The notes under the pieces are model-generated. The model had not been told where the DNA came from, searched no databases, and was given only the letters and a program-made list of their open reading frames with translations. A stretch of 56,948 nt of DNA from Rhodospirillales bacterium. GTDB lineage: Bacteria > Pseudomonadota > Alphaproteobacteria > Acetobacterales > Acetobacteraceae. Shown here piece by piece: positions 34,327-41,030 of this stretch. Position 1 is the first letter of the stretch, and the number at the start of each line of letters is the position of its first letter. The stretch lies in NCBI GenBank assembly GCA_025351925.1, contig JANXVC010000314.1, positions 1 to 56,948 of the forward strand, read 5' to 3'. The translations under genes and the position numbers were made by a program.

Positions 34327-35073
34327 ATGGCAGACGCACAACCCGTTTCAGGTGTGGCTCAAACAGGTGTGGCCGGATCGGTCGTTGCGGATGAGATCGC
34401 GCGGTTCGACGCGTTGGCCGCGCAATGGTGGGACACAGCGGGCCCGATGGGCGCGCTGCATGCGATGAACCCGCTGCGTGTCGGCTGGATCGACCGCCGC
34501 ATCCGGGTGCGGTTTGGCGGCCCGGTGCGTCTGCTCGACATCGGCTGCGGCGCCGGGCTGGCGTCGGAGGCGCTAGCAGCGCTGGGCCACGACGTGCTCG
34601 GCCTGGATGCCGCAGCGGACGTGATCGCCGCGGCGACGGCGCATGCGGATGGCCAAGGCCTGTCGCTCGCCTATCGGGCCGGCGCTGCCGAGGACCTCGT
34701 GGCGGAGGGCGGCCGCTTTTCCGTGGTAACAGCGCTCGAGGTGATCGAGCACGTGGCTGACCCTGCCGCCTTCCTACGCCTTTTGGCGCAGCTCATCGAA
34801 CCCGGCGGATTGCTGTTCGTGTCCACGTTGAACCGCACGCTGCGGTCGCTCGCGGTCGCGAAGCTTGGAGCGGAATACCTGCTGCGCCTGTTGCCGGTCG
34901 GCACGCATGACTGGCGGCAATTCATTACTCCGGCAGAGCTTGGGACTTATGGCAAGGCTGCCGGCTTCAGCGTGGCTGACGTCAGCGGGATGCTGTTCGA
35001 CATCCGGTCCCGGCAATGGCGGGCCGGCACGGACCTCGCGGTGAACTATATCGCGATGCTGGAGCGCCGCTAA
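34327..35073 (+). CDS. ubiG: Ubiquinone biosynthesis O-methyltransferase
   Basis: SAM-dependent O-methyltransferase that acts twice in ubiquinone synthesis, on the 2-polyprenyl-6-hydroxyphenol and demethylubiquinol intermediates. 248 residues. Seen: the family opening IARFDALAAQWWD, HAMNPLRVGWID, the SAM loop LLDIGCGAGL and ALEVIEHVADP, all typical of UbiG. GGGG 8 bases upstream supports ATG 34327; the frame stays open back to 33901 but that lies over lysC. Its end overlaps the DUF1178 end in converging orientation. Confidence 0.96.
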   Translation: MADAQPVSGVAQTGVAGSVVADEIARFDALAAQWWDTAGPMGALHAMNPLRVGWIDRRIRVRFGGPVRLLDIGCGAGLASEALAALGHDVLGLDAAADVIAAATAHADGQGLSLAYRAGAAEDLVAEGGRFSVVTALEVIEHVADPAAFLRLLAQLIEPGGLLFVSTLNRTLRSLAVAKLGAEYLLRLLPVGTHDWRQFITPAELGTYGKAAGFSVADVSGMLFDIRSRQWRAGTDLAVNYIAMLERR

Positions 35074-35543
35074 CCGTCGGCCCGCGGAACCCAAGGAATG
35101 CGCGCGACCTCGATGCCCTCATCCGCCAAGGCTTCCGCCTGCTCGGGCGTGCTCTCGCCGTAGATGCCACGCTTGTCACTCTCGCCGCGATGGATGCGCC
35201 GGGCCTCCTCCGCAAAGCCCGGGCCCACGTAGTCGCAGTTCCGTTCTACGTCGGCGCGCAGCTTCTGCAGCATCGAGCGGACATGGTCAGGCATTCCGGA
35301 GCCGGTTTTCTCGACACTCGATTGTTCAGGCACCGAGACCGCAACGTCGGGGGTGCCAGAGGTGTCCACTACGGCGCGGCCCTTCCTGATCCGCGGCGCC
35401 ATCAACGCGCGGTTCACGGTCGTATCGCCGCAAGCCGGACACGACACCAGACCGCGCTCAGCCTGAACGTCAAACGCCGCGCTGTCACGGAACCAGCCGT
35501 CAAAGCTATGATCGGCGCTGCATCGCAACTGATAGTGGATCAT
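35070..35543 (-). CDS. DUF1178 family protein
   Basis: A 157-residue protein matching DUF1178, with the conserved opening MIHYQLRCSADHSFDGWFRDSAAFD and a zinc-ribbon-like CPACGDTTVNRALMAP in which Cys pairs may bind metal. The C-terminal half carries HRGESDKRGIYGESTPEQA, also typical. Function unknown. It is the last gene of the minus-strand run dioxygenase-rhodanese-comF-grxC, 70 bases after grxC. Confidence 0.92.
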   Translation of the reverse strand: MIHYQLRCSADHSFDGWFRDSAAFDVQAERGLVSCPACGDTTVNRALMAPRIRKGRAVVDTSGTPDVAVSVPEQSSVEKTGSGMPDHVRSMLQKLRADVERNCDYVGPGFAEEARRIHRGESDKRGIYGESTPEQAEALADEGIEVARIPWVPRADG

Positions 35544-35923: not shown

Positions 35924-36670
35924 CTACTCCAGACGCGCATCTGCCACACGCGCGGCCACCAGCACATCCACCCGAGCCACGCCGGCCGCCAGCAGCGCAC
36001 GGGCGCAGGCGTCCGCCGTAGCGCCGGAGGTCATCACGTCGTCGATCAGCAGCACCCGCGCATCCGCAAGCTGCACTCGGCGCGACGGCCGGACGATGAA
36101 GGCGCCCGCAACCTCCGTCCTGCGCTGGGCGCCAGTCAGATGCCCAAGCGAAACCGTGGCCCGGGTCCGGCGCAACCCGTCCAGCACCGAGGGCCGGCCA
36201 GTAAGCCGCGAGAGAGCCTGGGCCAGCAGCGCCGACTGGTTATAGCGGCGAGACAGCAGGCGCCTGCGATGCAGCGGCACGGGGACCAGCCAGTCGGCCG
36301 CGGATAGCAGTGCGGCACCCGCCCGCGCCATGTGCGGCGCCAGCGCCCGGGCGGTCTCAACGCGGTCGCCGTACTTGAACGGCAGTAGGATGCGCCGGGC
36401 CTGGTCATCGTAGCGCAGCGCCGCACGTGCCGCGGTCCAGGCCGGCGGATGCTCCCGGCAGTCGGCGCAGCGTCCGATTGCTCCGCCCTGCATGGCGGAG
36501 CCGAAGGGCCGTCCGCAGCATGTGCAGCAGGGGTTGGTCACGAAGGCGGTGCGGCGGAAACAAGCGGCGCAGAACTGGCCTGGCGCCCCGACCGGCGCGT
36601 CGCATGTCAGGCACTGTGGCGGCAAAAGCACATCGAGCAGCAATCCGACGCCCCGGCGCCCAACCGCCAA
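35924..36670 (-). CDS. ComF family protein
   Basis: About 248 residues. The N-terminal part has Cys pairs that may bind zinc (CLTC, FCAAC, CCTCC, CADC) and the C-terminal part is a phosphoribosyltransferase-like domain with the PRPP motif VLLIDDVMTSGATA. In naturally competent bacteria ComF helps single-stranded DNA uptake; elsewhere its role is open. No ATG fits. I use TTG at 36670; TTG 36688 (overlapping the rhodanese stop) and GTG 36631 are alternatives. The first usable codons run straight into LLLDVLLPPQC, the family start. Confidence 0.83.
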   Translation of the reverse strand: MAVGRRGVGLLLDVLLPPQCLTCDAPVGAPGQFCAACFRRTAFVTNPCCTCCGRPFGSAMQGGAIGRCADCREHPPAWTAARAALRYDDQARRILLPFKYGDRVETARALAPHMARAGAALLSAADWLVPVPLHRRRLLSRRYNQSALLAQALSRLTGRPSVLDGLRRTRATVSLGHLTGAQRRTEVAGAFIVRPSRRVQLADARVLLIDDVMTSGATADACARALLAAGVARVDVLVAARVADARLE

Positions 36671-36677
36671 CAGCCGG

Positions 36678-38228
36678 TCAGGCGCCAAAGGCAACCGTGC
36701 CGTCGCGCTCGATCTCGTGCACCAGATCGATCTCCCACGATAAGTAGGCCTGCATCGCCGCCGCAACCCCCGAGTTGCGGTCGTATGGGCGCAGGTAGAA
36801 ATCGACGCAGGCCTCGTCCGGCGGATTGATGCGGTCAGCGACCGGTATGTTGCCGGCGGCGATCCACGCAGTCGTCCCGCCAGCCAGGACCTGAACTGGC
36901 GCTGCGGTCAGGCCTTGCAGCTCCGCCACCGCAAGCCGGGCCAGCGTGCCGTCCACCGAGGTGACGACGACGCGCTCGGCCGCGGCCAACGAGTCGCGCA
37001 GCGCATCCAGACGGGTGCGGATGCCCCAGACTGCGCCCGGGATATGGCCCGCGCGATAATCGACGCTGCGTGCGAGGTCCACGACCAGCGCGCTGTCCAA
37101 ACTTGCCGTAGGGGCGACCAGATCGGCGTGTGGCAGGACCGGCGGCACGACGACCATAGCGTCGATGTCGTCCAGTCCGTTTTCTACGACGAAAACATCC
37201 AAGAAACCCATCTGCCGCAGCCAGGCTCCGGCCATCCGGGCGCGCACGCCGTCATCGTCCAGCAGCGCGATGCGGGCGCCACGGACGGCAATCCATTGGT
37301 CGGTCGCCTGGATCAGCTGGCCGCCCGGGGCGTTGCGGCTGCCCGGCCGGTGCTGCGCCGCGAACTCGGCAGGGTCGCGCACGTCCAGCGCATACAGCGT
37401 GCGGTCCGGGTCCTCCGCGTATCGCGTGAGGTCGAGCGGGCCGATCACGCCGACGCCCGACGCCTCGGCAAACGCACGGGCACGGTCGAGCGCCAGACGG
37501 GCCGTCGCCGGCGGCCCCGGGGCATAGCGCCTGGTCTGGCCGCGCTCGCATGCGAAGCCGGCGAGTTCCCATCCCGTCGTGCCGTTGCGCAGCGCCACCA
37601 CTGGGTTCGGCACCCCAGCGCGGCGCAGGCTCTCGGCACCCATGATGCTGCGGGTCCGGCCGGCGCAGTTCACGACGATCAGCATCGCCGGGTCGGGCGC
37701 GAGGTCGGCAATGCGGTAGGCGAGCTCGCCGCCGGGCACATTGATCCCGGTCGGGATCGACATGCTGCGGAATTCTTCCAAAGGCCGGCTATCGAGCACG
37801 ACCATGTCGCGGCCACCGTCGATCCAGGCCTTCAGCTCGGCCGCGTCCACGCTCTCTGTGCCATAACGGTGCTCGACCCACTCGCCGAATGCCTTGCTGG
37901 GCACGTTCACGCCGCTGAACAGCACGAACCCGGCGGCAGCCCACGCGGGCGTGCCGCCGTCCAGCACATGCAGATCCGTGGCGCCCTGCCCGGCCAGGTA
38001 CTCGGCCAATCGCTCCGCCAGGCCGCGCCCGTCATCCACGCACACGATGCGGGTGCCGAGACGCGGCAGCAGGACCGGTATCCGCAGCTCGGCGCGGGAC
38101 AGCGGACACGGCACGGCCCAGAACAGGTGGCTGGTGCCGAACTCGCCCTCCTCCCGCGCGTCAAGGATGGCCAGTTCGCGACCGTCTTGAATCCAGCCGC
38201 GCAGGGTGGCGGCGTCGATACGGGTCAT
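36678..38228 (-). CDS. Four-domain rhodanese-like sulfurtransferase
   Basis: A 516-residue protein made of four rhodanese domains in tandem at about 5-105, 125-225, 260-365 and 375-465, with a short Cys-containing C-terminal tail (PPDEACVDFYLRPYD). The active-site Cys is seen in the second (Cys188, CAGRTRS) and probably in the first (Cys63, CVDDGRG). The third has Leu/Asp instead (LLDDDGV) and the fourth has Ser424 (TSVDG). Persulfide transfer is therefore likely from the first two only, while the others may be structural. It overlaps the dioxygenase gene as ATGA, suggesting a shared thiol substrate or product. Confidence 0.92.
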   Translation of the reverse strand: MTRIDAATLRGWIQDGRELAILDAREEGEFGTSHLFWAVPCPLSRAELRIPVLLPRLGTRIVCVDDGRGLAERLAEYLAGQGATDLHVLDGGTPAWAAAGFVLFSGVNVPSKAFGEWVEHRYGTESVDAAELKAWIDGGRDMVVLDSRPLEEFRSMSIPTGINVPGGELAYRIADLAPDPAMLIVVNCAGRTRSIMGAESLRRAGVPNPVVALRNGTTGWELAGFACERGQTRRYAPGPPATARLALDRARAFAEASGVGVIGPLDLTRYAEDPDRTLYALDVRDPAEFAAQHRPGSRNAPGGQLIQATDQWIAVRGARIALLDDDGVRARMAGAWLRQMGFLDVFVVENGLDDIDAMVVVPPVLPHADLVAPTASLDSALVVDLARSVDYRAGHIPGAVWGIRTRLDALRDSLAAAERVVVTSVDGTLARLAVAELQGLTAAPVQVLAGGTTAWIAAGNIPVADRINPPDEACVDFYLRPYDRNSGVAAAMQAYLSWEIDLVHEIERDGTVAFGA

Positions 38229-38833
38229 CGGTTCGCGGTGGGCGTCATGAAGGCCTTGTTGTAGGGCTGCACCGTGCCCGCGTCGGGGTCGAAGCCCTGA
38301 CGCGCGTCCAGCTTCTCCAGCGCCAGGCCATAGACGTGCAGATGCCGGGTCGGCTGGATGCCGGAGGTGTGGATGGAGTGGATGTCGTTGGGCATGAAGG
38401 CGATGCCACGGCCGGGCTCGACCATGACCTCGCGAACCAGTTCCAGTGTAGCCTTGCCGGGAACCGAGGCATCGTCGGTGCGCCGATACACCCGGTTCAG
38501 CTCCTGGCCTTCAACCGCGGTGATGACGGCCCAGGTTGTATGGTCGTGCGGCTTGCTCGAGTTGCCGGGGTTCAGCGCCAGCAGATAGATGGCAAAGCGG
38601 CCGTCCGGGTCCTCCTGCAGCAGATACCGCTGCGATCCCTTCTGGCCCTCCGGCGGGGGCGGGAACTCGGCGTGCGGAAACAGCGCCTCGTGTCCGGCCA
38701 GCTCCAGCATTTCGGTCAGGATGGCGTCGAGCGTCGGGCGGGTGACGCCCTGCTCGCGCTCGATCGCCTTGACGCGGTCCATCGTGGCGGCAACGGCGGC
38801 GGTACGGGCGGCGGAGGTGGCGGGCGCGTTCAT
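38225..38833 (-). CDS. Cysteine dioxygenase-type (thiol dioxygenase) cupin protein
   Basis: A 202-residue cupin with a probable mononuclear iron site: His96 and His98 in KPHDHTTWAV and His152 in NDIHSIH, the three-His pattern of the thiol dioxygenase family, and a later LHVYGLAL. Such enzymes oxidise cysteine or 3-mercaptopropionate to the sulfinate using O2. Which substrate is used cannot be read from sequence; the missing Cys-Tyr crosslink partners would help decide. It is the first gene of the minus-strand run and is translationally coupled to the rhodanese gene. Confidence 0.87.
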   Translation of the reverse strand: MNAPATSAARTAAVAATMDRVKAIEREQGVTRPTLDAILTEMLELAGHEALFPHAEFPPPPEGQKGSQRYLLQEDPDGRFAIYLLALNPGNSSKPHDHTTWAVITAVEGQELNRVYRRTDDASVPGKATLELVREVMVEPGRGIAFMPNDIHSIHTSGIQPTRHLHVYGLALEKLDARQGFDPDAGTVQPYNKAFMTPTANR

Positions 38834-38931: not shown

Positions 38932-39777
38932 ATGGACGACCAGACCGTTTTCGACCGCCGGGCCGTGCGCCTGCACCGCGACCGCGCAGCTGCCACGGTG
39001 GGCCAGGTCACCGAAATCCTGCAGGACTGTGCCGAGCGCCTGCTGGACCGGCTCGACGACACCACGCGCCGCTTTACCCGGGCGCTGGATGTCGGCGGCC
39101 GGGGCGTCGTAGCGCCGTTGCTGCGCGCCCGGGGCATCGAGGTGGTGAGCTGCGATCTCTCATCCCGCATGGCATCGATCAACGGCGGCCTGTGCGTGAC
39201 GGCGGATGAAGAGTGGCTGCCCTTCGCTCCCGGAAGCTTCGACTTGGTGATCGCCAGCCTCTCGCTGCATTGGATCAACGATCTCCCCGGCGCGCTGATC
39301 CAGCTGCGTATGGCGCTGGAGCCGGATGGCCTGCTGCTCGCAAGCCTTCCGGCGCTCGGCACTTTGGGTGAACTCCGCACCGCATTGACCCAGGCCGAGG
39401 CCGAGCTGATGGGCGGCGCGTCCCCCCGTGTCTCGCCCTTCCCCGAGTTGCGCGATCTCGCGGCCCTGCTGCAGCGTGCCGGCTTCGCGCTGCCGGTGGC
39501 GGATGTGGAGGAGATTTCGCTCCGCTATGCCGATCCATTTGCCCTGTTGCGCGACCTACGGGCCGCAGGTGAATGCAACGCGGTGGCGCTGCGTGACCAC
39601 CGGGTGCCGCAAAGCGCGCTGTTCCCTGCGGCGTTGGCGGCGTCTCCGCAACAGGAGGGGCGCATGACGGCAACCCTGCGCTACGCCAGCATGACGGGAT
39701 GGGCTCCTGGCCCACAACAGCCGCAACTGCTGAAGCCGGGAACGGGCCGGGTCAGCCTCTCGGACGCGCTCAAATAG
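38932..39777 (+). CDS. SAM-dependent methyltransferase-like protein, NDUFAF5/BioC type
   Basis: A 281-residue protein with a class I methyltransferase fold. The opening VFDRRAVRLHRDRAA matches the NDUFAF5-like branch related to BioC. The SAM loop is weak, LDVGGRGVVAPLL, where one expects GCGTG, so cofactor binding may be altered. Later ASLSLHWINDLPGAL and LRMALEPDGLLL are typical. In mitochondria NDUFAF5 hydroxylates an Arg of a complex I subunit; whether the bacterial relative does so is unknown. It is divergent from the dioxygenase gene. Confidence 0.85.
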   Translation: MDDQTVFDRRAVRLHRDRAAATVGQVTEILQDCAERLLDRLDDTTRRFTRALDVGGRGVVAPLLRARGIEVVSCDLSSRMASINGGLCVTADEEWLPFAPGSFDLVIASLSLHWINDLPGALIQLRMALEPDGLLLASLPALGTLGELRTALTQAEAELMGGASPRVSPFPELRDLAALLQRAGFALPVADVEEISLRYADPFALLRDLRAAGECNAVALRDHRVPQSALFPAALAASPQQEGRMTATLRYASMTGWAPGPQQPQLLKPGTGRVSLSDALK

Positions 39778-39811: not shown

Positions 39812-40798
39812 CTAGCCTCCAGTAAGGCTCATATGCCGCGCCACCGACGGTGCCGGGTTGCGACGATCGATTACGAAATCATGCCCCTTCGGCTTGCGAG
39901 TAATCGCCAGCCTGATGGCCGCGTCCAGCTCCGCGTCCGAGACGCCATCCCGCAGCACGCGCCGTAGATCCGCCGCATCGTCCTGACCCAAACACATATA
40001 CAGCGTCCCCGTGCAGGTCAGCCGGACGCGGTTGCAGCTTTCACAGAAATTATGCGTCATCGGCGTGATGAAGCCGATCCGCGTGCCGGTCTCCTGCACA
40101 TCAAAATACCGGGCTGGGCCGCCAGTCTGGTAGCTGGTGTCCTGCAGCGTCCAGCGCTGGCGCAACCGTCCGCGCACCAGCGACAGCGGCAGGTACTGGT
40201 CCGTGCGGTCGCCGCCGATGTCGCCCATAGGCATCGTCTCGATCAGGCATAGATCGTGCCCCTGCTCCCCGCACCAAGCGAGCATGTCGTCGATCTCGTC
40301 CTCGTTCACGCCCTTCAGCGCGACGGCGTTCACCTTCACGTGCAGTCCGGCCGCCTTCGCCGCCGCTATGCCGTCCAGCACCTTCTCGATCTTACCCCAG
40401 CGGGTGATCGCGGCGAACCGCGCCGGGTCGAGGGTATCCAGGCTCACATTCACCCGGCGCACCCCGGCTGCATAAAGCGCCTCGGCATGCTTGGTGAGCT
40501 GCGTCCCGTTTGTCGTCAGCGTCAGCTCATCAAGGCCTTGCCCCAAACGCTGTCCCAGCCTTTGAAACAGCGTTTGCACGTCACGGCGAACCAATGGCTC
40601 GCCGCCGGTAATGCGGATTTTGTTGGTGCCGAGCCGGATGAACGCGACGCACAGCCGCTCCAGCTCTTCCAGTGACAGCACGTCGGCCTTAGGCAGGAAG
40701 GTCATGTCCTCCGACATGCAATAGACGCAGCGGAGGTCGCACCGGTCGGTGACGGAGACCCGCAGATAGGTGATGGCACGGCCAAACGGATCGATCAT
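39812..40798 (-). CDS. moaA: GTP 3',8-cyclase (molybdenum cofactor synthesis)
   Basis: Radical SAM enzyme that, with MoaC, converts GTP to cyclic pyranopterin monophosphate. 328 residues from the ATG at 40798. The radical SAM cluster CDLRCVYC is at Cys20, Cys24, Cys27, a second [4Fe-4S] site appears in [13 protein letters not shown], and the protein ends in the conserved Gly-Gly tail (MSLTGG). ATG 40804 and 40840 also fit, the last overlapping the DUF3553 gene. No other moa/moe gene lies nearby. Confidence 0.96.
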
Positions 40799-40829
40799 AC
40801 CCATAGTGTCGGCTCTGGCGAGCGCGGGT

Positions 40830-41030
40830 TCAACCGTCATCTTCGTCCAGAATGTCCAACGCAACGACCGCAGCGTTCACCAGCACTTTGCCGGCATGCT
40901 CGAAGTTGACCGTGATGCGGTCGCCGACAGCGGACTGCACCTGGCCCACGCCCCAATCCGGCCGGCCGGGGTGCCGGACCCGCTGGCCGGGTTCAATCAG
41001 CGAGCCGAGCGACCGGTGCGGGCCTGTCAT
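40830..41030 (-). CDS. DUF3553 family protein
   Basis: A 66-residue protein with the DUF3553 pattern: [24 protein letters not shown] and [14 protein letters not shown], a short beta-barrel domain also seen in helicases. Function unknown; a nucleic-acid or protein-binding role is inferred. The frame stays open to 41333, but that part overlaps the aldolase gene out of frame. It starts 11 bases after that gene and may overlap the moaA start. The product is short but shows good family resemblance. Confidence 0.85.

Follow-up and report, generated by a model that had tools for sequence, protein, structure and literature searches.

Why should the gene of a putative thiol dioxygenase overlap that of a rhodanese in which most of the domains appear to have lost their catalytic cysteine? 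The question is raised by contig JANXVC010000314.1 (GenBank assembly GCA_025351925.1, a Rhodospirillales bacterium of the Acetobacteraceae), of which we analysed positions 1 to 56,948 (56,948 nucleotides, hereafter the window), and in which a cupin gene and a tandem rhodanese gene are arranged as follows:

38225..38833, minus strand: cupin gene, 202 residues, reading frame confirmed
36678..38228, minus strand: tandem rhodanese gene, 516 residues, four domains, reading frame confirmed
38225..38228, minus strand: ATGA overlap of the cupin stop and the rhodanese start, read directly from the sequence

Frames, strand and coordinates all agree with an earlier sequence-only reading, which had reported the ATGA overlap of the cupin gene with a rhodanese of 516 residues. 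The overlap makes translational coupling of the two genes possible: GGAG lies 7 bases 5' of the cupin ATG, no GGAG-like site was seen in the sequence upstream of the rhodanese ATG, and coupling would fit this absence. The source genome comprises 5,922,311 bases in 547 contigs, and the rhodaneses most similar to that of the window in named records are alphaproteobacterial, including that of Rhodopila globiformis.

In both sequence and structure searches the closest solved relative of the cupin was mercaptosuccinate dioxygenase (MSDO), not 3-mercaptopropionate dioxygenase (3MDO) or cysteine dioxygenase (CDO). The distribution of such dioxygenases and of the rhodanese was followed in an order sample of 200 genomes, the source genome included, in which the rhodanese was counted at E 1e-60 or better and a dioxygenase was called from a 3MDO match (L048 as query) at E 1e-30 or better, as found in 58 of the 200 genomes, or from an MSDO-type match of at least 39% identity. 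A dioxygenase of the MSDO or 3MDO type was present in 72 genomes, and 71 of these also have the rhodanese; five of the 76 rhodanese genomes have neither type, one of them (G131) with a partial rhodanese match only. The phylum sample (398 genomes; cuts E 1e-30 for 3MDO and E 1e-25 for MSDO) gave a similar picture, with the rhodanese in 26 of the 27 dioxygenase genomes. There, all 23 genomes with 3MDO have the rhodanese (directly adjacent in 17), and MSDO-type matches lie directly upstream of it in six of ten cases. Fisher tests of the co-occurrence yielded 7e-47 for the order and 5e-30 for the phylum, values that are description only because kinship is ignored, and in which genome size is not controlled.

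Adjacency was recorded at 79 rhodanese loci in the 76 order genomes. Of the cupins matched, 28 reach 44% identity or more with that of the window, and every one of them sits directly upstream of the rhodanese; 24 further loci have an upstream cupin of the 3MDO type, below 44% identity, and 27 have no upstream cupin among the matches listed (at one of these 27, on contig 113 of G062, only 313 bases lie upstream). L048, which belongs to the 3MDO-type group, matches 4qma (E 6e-70) and the Azotobacter 3MDO 6xb9 (E 1e-68). When the 26 order genomes with a cupin-less rhodanese locus and the source genome were searched with L048, 22 of the 27 gave a match at E 0.001, the source genome through its own MSDO, and a strong 3MDO match (E 3.2e-57 or better) was present in 19; an unlinked 3MDO without an adjacent MSDO was found in 18 order genomes. 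In G348, a genome of 1.7 Mb, rhodanese and 3MDO lie about 313 kb apart. Both genes are also present, but not adjacent, in four genomes of the genus g195 with sizes of 1.7 to 2.1 Mb; in G490, which is one of these four, the 3MDO match is flagged with one stop. The sequence-only reading had made conservation of the pair elsewhere one of two tests of its linked-pathway idea, and the pair passed this one, both in adjacency (28 of 28) and in co-occurrence (71 of 72, 26 of 27); a functional link is therefore likely. Likewise, the match of the rhodanese to the solved four-domain structure 1yt8 (E 1.7e-133) and the wide recurrence of the pair argue that the pairing is not due to chance.

A set of 160 distinct loci was examined for cupins within 1.6 kb of the rhodanese: the neighbour is of the MSDO type in 53, of the 3MDO type in 26 and of a third type in 10, none is present in 65, and in six the flank is too short. 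Because the best 80 of 593 candidates supplied the named loci, this set leans to close relatives. All 89 neighbouring cupins are on the upstream side of the rhodanese, two of the third type in opposite orientation; open-frame coordinates had placed a cupin downstream at some loci, which was rejected because domain coordinates place 89 of 89 upstream. A FastTree tree of 150 full-length rhodaneses with known flanks requires 17 changes when the neighbour is scored as one of three cupin types or as 'none'; the tree contains two pairs of long branches that join. Taken singly, 'none' needs 14 changes (10 forced by the starred branches), MSDO 14 (8), 3MDO 3 (2) and the third type 2 (1), and without the state 'none' the swaps among the three cupin types need only three. 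These counts, which cannot separate gain from loss, suggest that the common event was the gain or loss of a cupin beside a rhodanese that stayed, and that the exchange of one type for another was rare.

The third cupin family (motif PHDHG..W) adjoins the four-domain rhodanese at L141, L143, L152, L158, L160, L166, L167, L168, L169 and L170, and at L167 the two genes overlap by four bases at the cupin stop and the rhodanese start. The only member searched, L143, had no Pfam match and a weak match to the MSDO structure 8vni (E 0.0065), and the family is an uncharacterised candidate thiol dioxygenase. At E up to 0.001 it was found in five of the 18 genomes that have the rhodanese but neither MSDO nor 3MDO, and in none of 20 genomes without the rhodanese. 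The idea that it explains all such orphan rhodaneses held in part only, for these five of 18, and it is not confined to orphans, because G104, which has a 3MDO, has it too. A shorter rhodanese of three domains (corresponding to about residues 6-369 of the window protein) occurs at L187, L188 and L189 and in six further g61 genomes; these nine g61 genomes had no MSDO, 3MDO or third-type cupin at the cuts used, and G365, G289, G504 and G131 likewise had no third-type cupin at E up to 0.001.

The assignment of the window cupin to the MSDO type rests on several searches. Against the PDB its sequence best matched 8vni, which we take to be the Variovorax enzyme (E 2e-48, 168 bits), whereas the 3MDO group was far weaker (E 5e-9 and weaker; 6xb9 40 bits). 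The predicted model (predicted local distance difference test score, pLDDT, 92.4) again had 8vni as its best PDB match, with template modelling (TM) scores of 0.87/0.91 and 47% identity; 3MDO structures came next at about 0.7 to 0.8 (0.72/0.75 against 0.87/0.91 for 8vni), and CDO structures were also matched. The 50 listed PDB matches comprise cysteine, cysteamine, mercapto-acid, plant cysteine and ergothioneine oxygenases and their relatives. In Pfam all matches of the cupin were below threshold (CDO_I at 13.4 bits against a curated cut-off of 23), CDO_I had no match at E 0.001 across the whole source genome, and NCBIfam gave none for the cupin at E 0.1. His96, His98 and His152, which the sequence-only reading had singled out, are present and align with the histidines of 8vni; together with Arg178 they are invariant in 13 aligned cupins (ten of the MSDO type, the window's included, and three of the 3MDO type). 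They are probably the iron ligands, and with the cupin fold the three histidines place the protein in the thiol dioxygenase superfamily. Arg69 faces Gln in the three 3MDO-type rows, and Arg178 shares its column with an Arg of the 3MDO type. In the Azotobacter 3MDO, Arg168 binds the substrate carboxylate and Gln63 marks the Gln type (PMC8050391). As we read the alignment, Gln63 and Arg168 are the residues aligned with Arg69 and Arg178, which are thus probable carboxylate binders; a pair of arginines would match a substrate thiol that bears two carboxylates.

What, then, is the rhodanese? Its 516 residues contain four Pfam rhodanese stretches (E 3e-40), and the match to 1yt8, a thiosulfate sulfurtransferase of Pseudomonas aeruginosa that is presumably PA2603, extends over residues 11-514. 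The predicted model (pLDDT 91.4) has 1yt8 as its best PDB match (TM 0.91/0.89, 46% identity), the two proteins having the same four-domain fold in register over nearly the full length. The catalytic slots of the four domains are:

38031..38042, minus strand: domain 1, codons of Cys63 to Asp66; slot Asp65 at 38034-38036, predicted dead
37647..37667, minus strand: domain 2, CAGRTRS loop with catalytic Cys188 and loop-end Arg193, predicted live
37257..37259, minus strand: domain 3, slot Asp324 by profile alignment, predicted dead
36957..36959, minus strand: domain 4, slot Ser424 by profile alignment, predicted dead here

A profile alignment of the domains pairs Cys188 with Asp65, Asp324 and Ser424, and in the predicted model each of the four is the first residue after its own strand. 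A Cys in first position of a six-residue loop after the strand, as expected of an active domain, is found in domain 2 (CAGRTR) and is lacking in domains 1, 3 and 4. The alignment of the four domains thus leaves a Cys at the slot in domain 2 only. It upholds the sequence-only reading for Cys188 in CAGRTRS and for Ser424 in domain 4, and it settles the third domain, for which Leu or Asp had been given, on Asp324. Where the two differ is in domain 1: Cys63, said to be kept and considered here as a second active cysteine, was rejected, because it aligns two positions before the slot, inside strand 60-64, and is poorly conserved. The number of degenerate domains accordingly rises from the two claimed to three (Asp65, Asp324, Ser424).

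Without any motif filter, the order search yielded 70 distinct rhodaneses at 90 loci. All 70 have Cys188; Cys63 is present in 39, Asp65 in 69 and Asp324 in 67, and position 424 is occupied by Ala in 34, Ser in 33, Cys in two and Asp in one. A larger set of 150 rows has Cys188 in 150, Cys63 in 66, Asp65 in 146, Asp324 in 146 (Cys in four) and, at position 424, Ser in 78, Ala in 60, Cys in eight and others in four. This set is partly motif-selected (some loci were found by patterns containing NCAGR or VPSKAF), so its 150 of 150 for Cys188 is biased and 70 of 70 is the fair figure. As predicted from these alignments, domain 2 is the sole catalytic domain and the three others are degenerate. The predicted live loop ends in Arg, and in RDL2 (CAKGVR) and DUF442 (CRTGTR) the loop-end Arg is needed to form the persulfide from thiosulfate (PMC8533005). 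The earlier idea of a scaffold of dead domains would fit three putatively dead domains around a live one; Asp is conserved at the slot of domain 1 in 146 of 150 sequences, and equally often at that of domain 3. Twelve relatives (L043, L053, L064, L074, L100, L101, L158, L172, L177, L179, L182 and L190) have Cys in the slot of domain 3 or 4 and may thus have kept or regained a second live domain. Six of the eight relatives with Cys in domain 4 are paired with 3MDO, and 1yt8 itself has Cys in domain 4 where the window protein has Ser424 (printed alignment).

The genes surrounding the pair were assigned by family searches, with one exception that is given below:

35070-35543 and 35924-36766, minus strand: comF-like gene and DUF1178 gene, downstream of the rhodanese
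38932-39777, plus strand: BioC-like methyltransferase gene, divergent, on the upstream side

Many related loci also have genes of these neighbours' clusters next to the rhodanese, whether a cupin is there or not. An open reading frame at 39812-40864 (minus strand), near the pair and not adjacent to it, resembles MoaA, judged from a sequence motif; among the loci compared, just a single gene, at one other locus, falls into its cluster.

Pairs of an iron dioxygenase with a rhodanese have been described in other settings. Persulfide dioxygenases of the ETHE1 type, which have a metallo-beta-lactamase fold, occur in pairs and fusions with rhodaneses; they work alike, in that an iron dioxygenase and a rhodanese act around sulfite and thiosulfate, and the 50 PDB matches listed for the cupin model include no ETHE1-type fold. 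In that system the dioxygenase makes sulfite, and sulfite with persulfide gives thiosulfate (PMC8533005). The pairing seen in the window is itself known (PMC5373536, PMC12947264). In Advenella mimigardefordensis, as in Variovorax paradoxus B4, msdo lies in a cluster with genes of a rhodanese and a cystathionine beta-lyase; the sulfinosuccinate produced by Msdo decays spontaneously to succinate and sulfite, and for strain B4 a rhodanese has been discussed in sulfite handling and cofactor synthesis (PMC5373536). The window shares with these clusters the cupin fold and its ligand motifs (8vni, 47% identity) and the presence of a rhodanese gene, but differs in that the rhodanese follows directly with the ATGA overlap, that no cystathionine beta-lyase gene intervenes, and that the neighbours are methyltransferase-like and comF-like genes. 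Loci of cluster c46 (L140, L163, L171 and two further loci) have a gene for a pyridoxal-phosphate enzyme of Cys/Met metabolism near the rhodanese (Pfam-checked in L140), in which they resemble Variovorax and Advenella. A deletion in Advenella was considered as evidence on the rhodanese and set aside: table and text give it as 37450-37480 (transporter genes) and the legend as 37430-37480, the rhodanese being 37440 (PMC5373536).

In P. protegens CHA0, 3mdo and tst (homologues PA2602-PA2603) appear to form one transcription unit (PMC12947264), and as in the window a thiol dioxygenase gene is followed by one annotated as thiosulfate sulfurtransferase. This dioxygenase belongs to another subfamily (the P. 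aeruginosa enzyme, 4tlf, shares 22% identity with the cupin of the window when the structures are matched). Deletion of 3mdo raised 3-mercaptopropionate, whereas deletion of tst had no significant effect on it (PMC12947264), which means that in P. protegens the dioxygenase step can proceed without the rhodanese. None of the papers listed by our searches of the open-access literature takes up genome-wide co-occurrence of dioxygenase and rhodanese in its title or the beginning of its abstract; phrases for a four-domain rhodanese and the PDB code 1YT8 were not found in the same literature, and PA2603 is not mentioned in the main text of PMC9765439. The tightness of the link, which we did not find in print, may be the part that a specialist would not expect.

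How might the two proteins work together? The reading we favour, tentatively and as somewhat short of probable, is that the rhodanese captures sulfite derived from the dioxygenase as thiosulfate, the cupin of the window being of the MSDO type. The cupin would oxidise a small carboxylated thiol, similar to mercaptosuccinate, to a sulfinate, which would fall apart to sulfite; the rhodanese, carrying a persulfide on Cys188, would pass sulfur to the sulfite, and this conversion to thiosulfate would remove a toxic product common to several such pathways, while the three dead domains would build and shield the single active site. A step common to different thiol dioxygenases is favoured by the pattern of co-occurrence, linked or unlinked, and the same rhodanese stands beside three cupin types across the 150-rhodanese tree. 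That the thiol did not change significantly when tst was deleted accords with a role of the rhodanese downstream of, or parallel to, the dioxygenase reaction. In its general form, in which the four-domain rhodanese is the companion of mercapto-acid dioxygenases of several subfamilies (MSDO, 3MDO and the third cupin, which adjoins it in Alphaproteobacteria), handles their shared product and makes breakdown a two-protein process, the proposal is possible and slightly more doubtful than for the window alone. The sulfide control suggested by the sequence-only reading found no direct support, and the pathway as a whole is one that we infer.

Several observations weigh against this reading. No cupin of the three types lies within 1.6 kb of the rhodanese in 65 of the 154 loci with known flanks, and 13 of the 39 rhodanese genomes in the phylum sample have neither MSDO nor 3MDO at the cuts given, nine of them with the three-domain g61 form. 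At a loose cut (window cupin, E 0.001) 88 order genomes match, of which 75 have the rhodanese (75 of the 76 rhodanese genomes) and 13 do not. Seven regions from these 13 were examined: in six the cupin has 31 to 35% identity with 3MDO (G012, G034, G042, G129, G139 and G161; L202 to L206 and L208), without a four-domain rhodanese, and the seventh is the MSDO-type cupin of G101. More distant members of the superfamily do, then, occur without the four-domain rhodanese, and the statement that every thiol dioxygenase has one is too wide, though it applies to MSDO and 3MDO at the cut-offs chosen for them. G101 and G423 have an MSDO-type cupin without a four-domain rhodanese, G423 with no rhodanese match at E 0.001 and G101 with a single-domain match only. 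As to chemistry, 3MDO yields 3-sulfinopropionate, from which a coenzyme A ligase and a desulfinase are needed to release sulfite (PMC5373536), so that sulfite is not its direct product; Brandt et al., quoted in PMC5373536, considered a role in cofactor synthesis for a sulfite-oxidising molybdoenzyme. The null result for tst is also what an unrelated gene would give, and the activities of both window proteins are predicted.

The cofactor idea leads to an explanation that we consider unlikely, yet the most serious rival: dioxygenase and rhodanese may belong to separate branches of one regulon for scavenging organosulfur, the rhodanese feeding biosynthesis (e.g., of the molybdenum cofactor) and being merely co-regulated. 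It accords with the suggestion quoted from Brandt et al. (PMC5373536). Loci of the 3MDO type lie near genes for a LysR regulator, a flavin mononucleotide luciferase-like monooxygenase and a class II aldolase (Pfam, single representatives) and near genes whose translations read as a sulfonate-type ATP-binding cassette transporter, and the MoaA-like frame of the window would also suit it. However, co-occurrence persists without linkage and in different neighbourhoods, and the MoaA-like gene has a counterpart at just one other locus compared. Somewhat less likely still is that the co-occurrence arises from common descent within some clades and from where the cut-offs were placed, not from function; the genomes are related, the Fisher tests take account of neither kinship nor genome size, and the loose cut lowers the figure to 75 of 88, but eight families of the phylum sample hold both genes, and the four g195 genomes of 1.7 to 2.1 Mb have retained both although they are non-adjacent. 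Rhodaneses move sulfane sulfur between thiols (PMC8533005), and the protein could instead act upstream, taking sulfane sulfur off an organic persulfide and handing the free thiol to the dioxygenase, a direct hand-over that the gene overlap of the window would favour; this we regard as improbable, given that the tst deletion in P. protegens was without significant effect on 3-mercaptopropionate (PMC12947264) and that the genes are unlinked in many genomes.

If, as proposed here, the four-domain rhodanese is the usual companion of mercapto-acid dioxygenases, work on these dioxygenases alone misses a step. The co-occurrence makes the role of the rhodanese directly testable, and the results also mark the uncharacterised cupin family as a candidate for another thiol dioxygenase.

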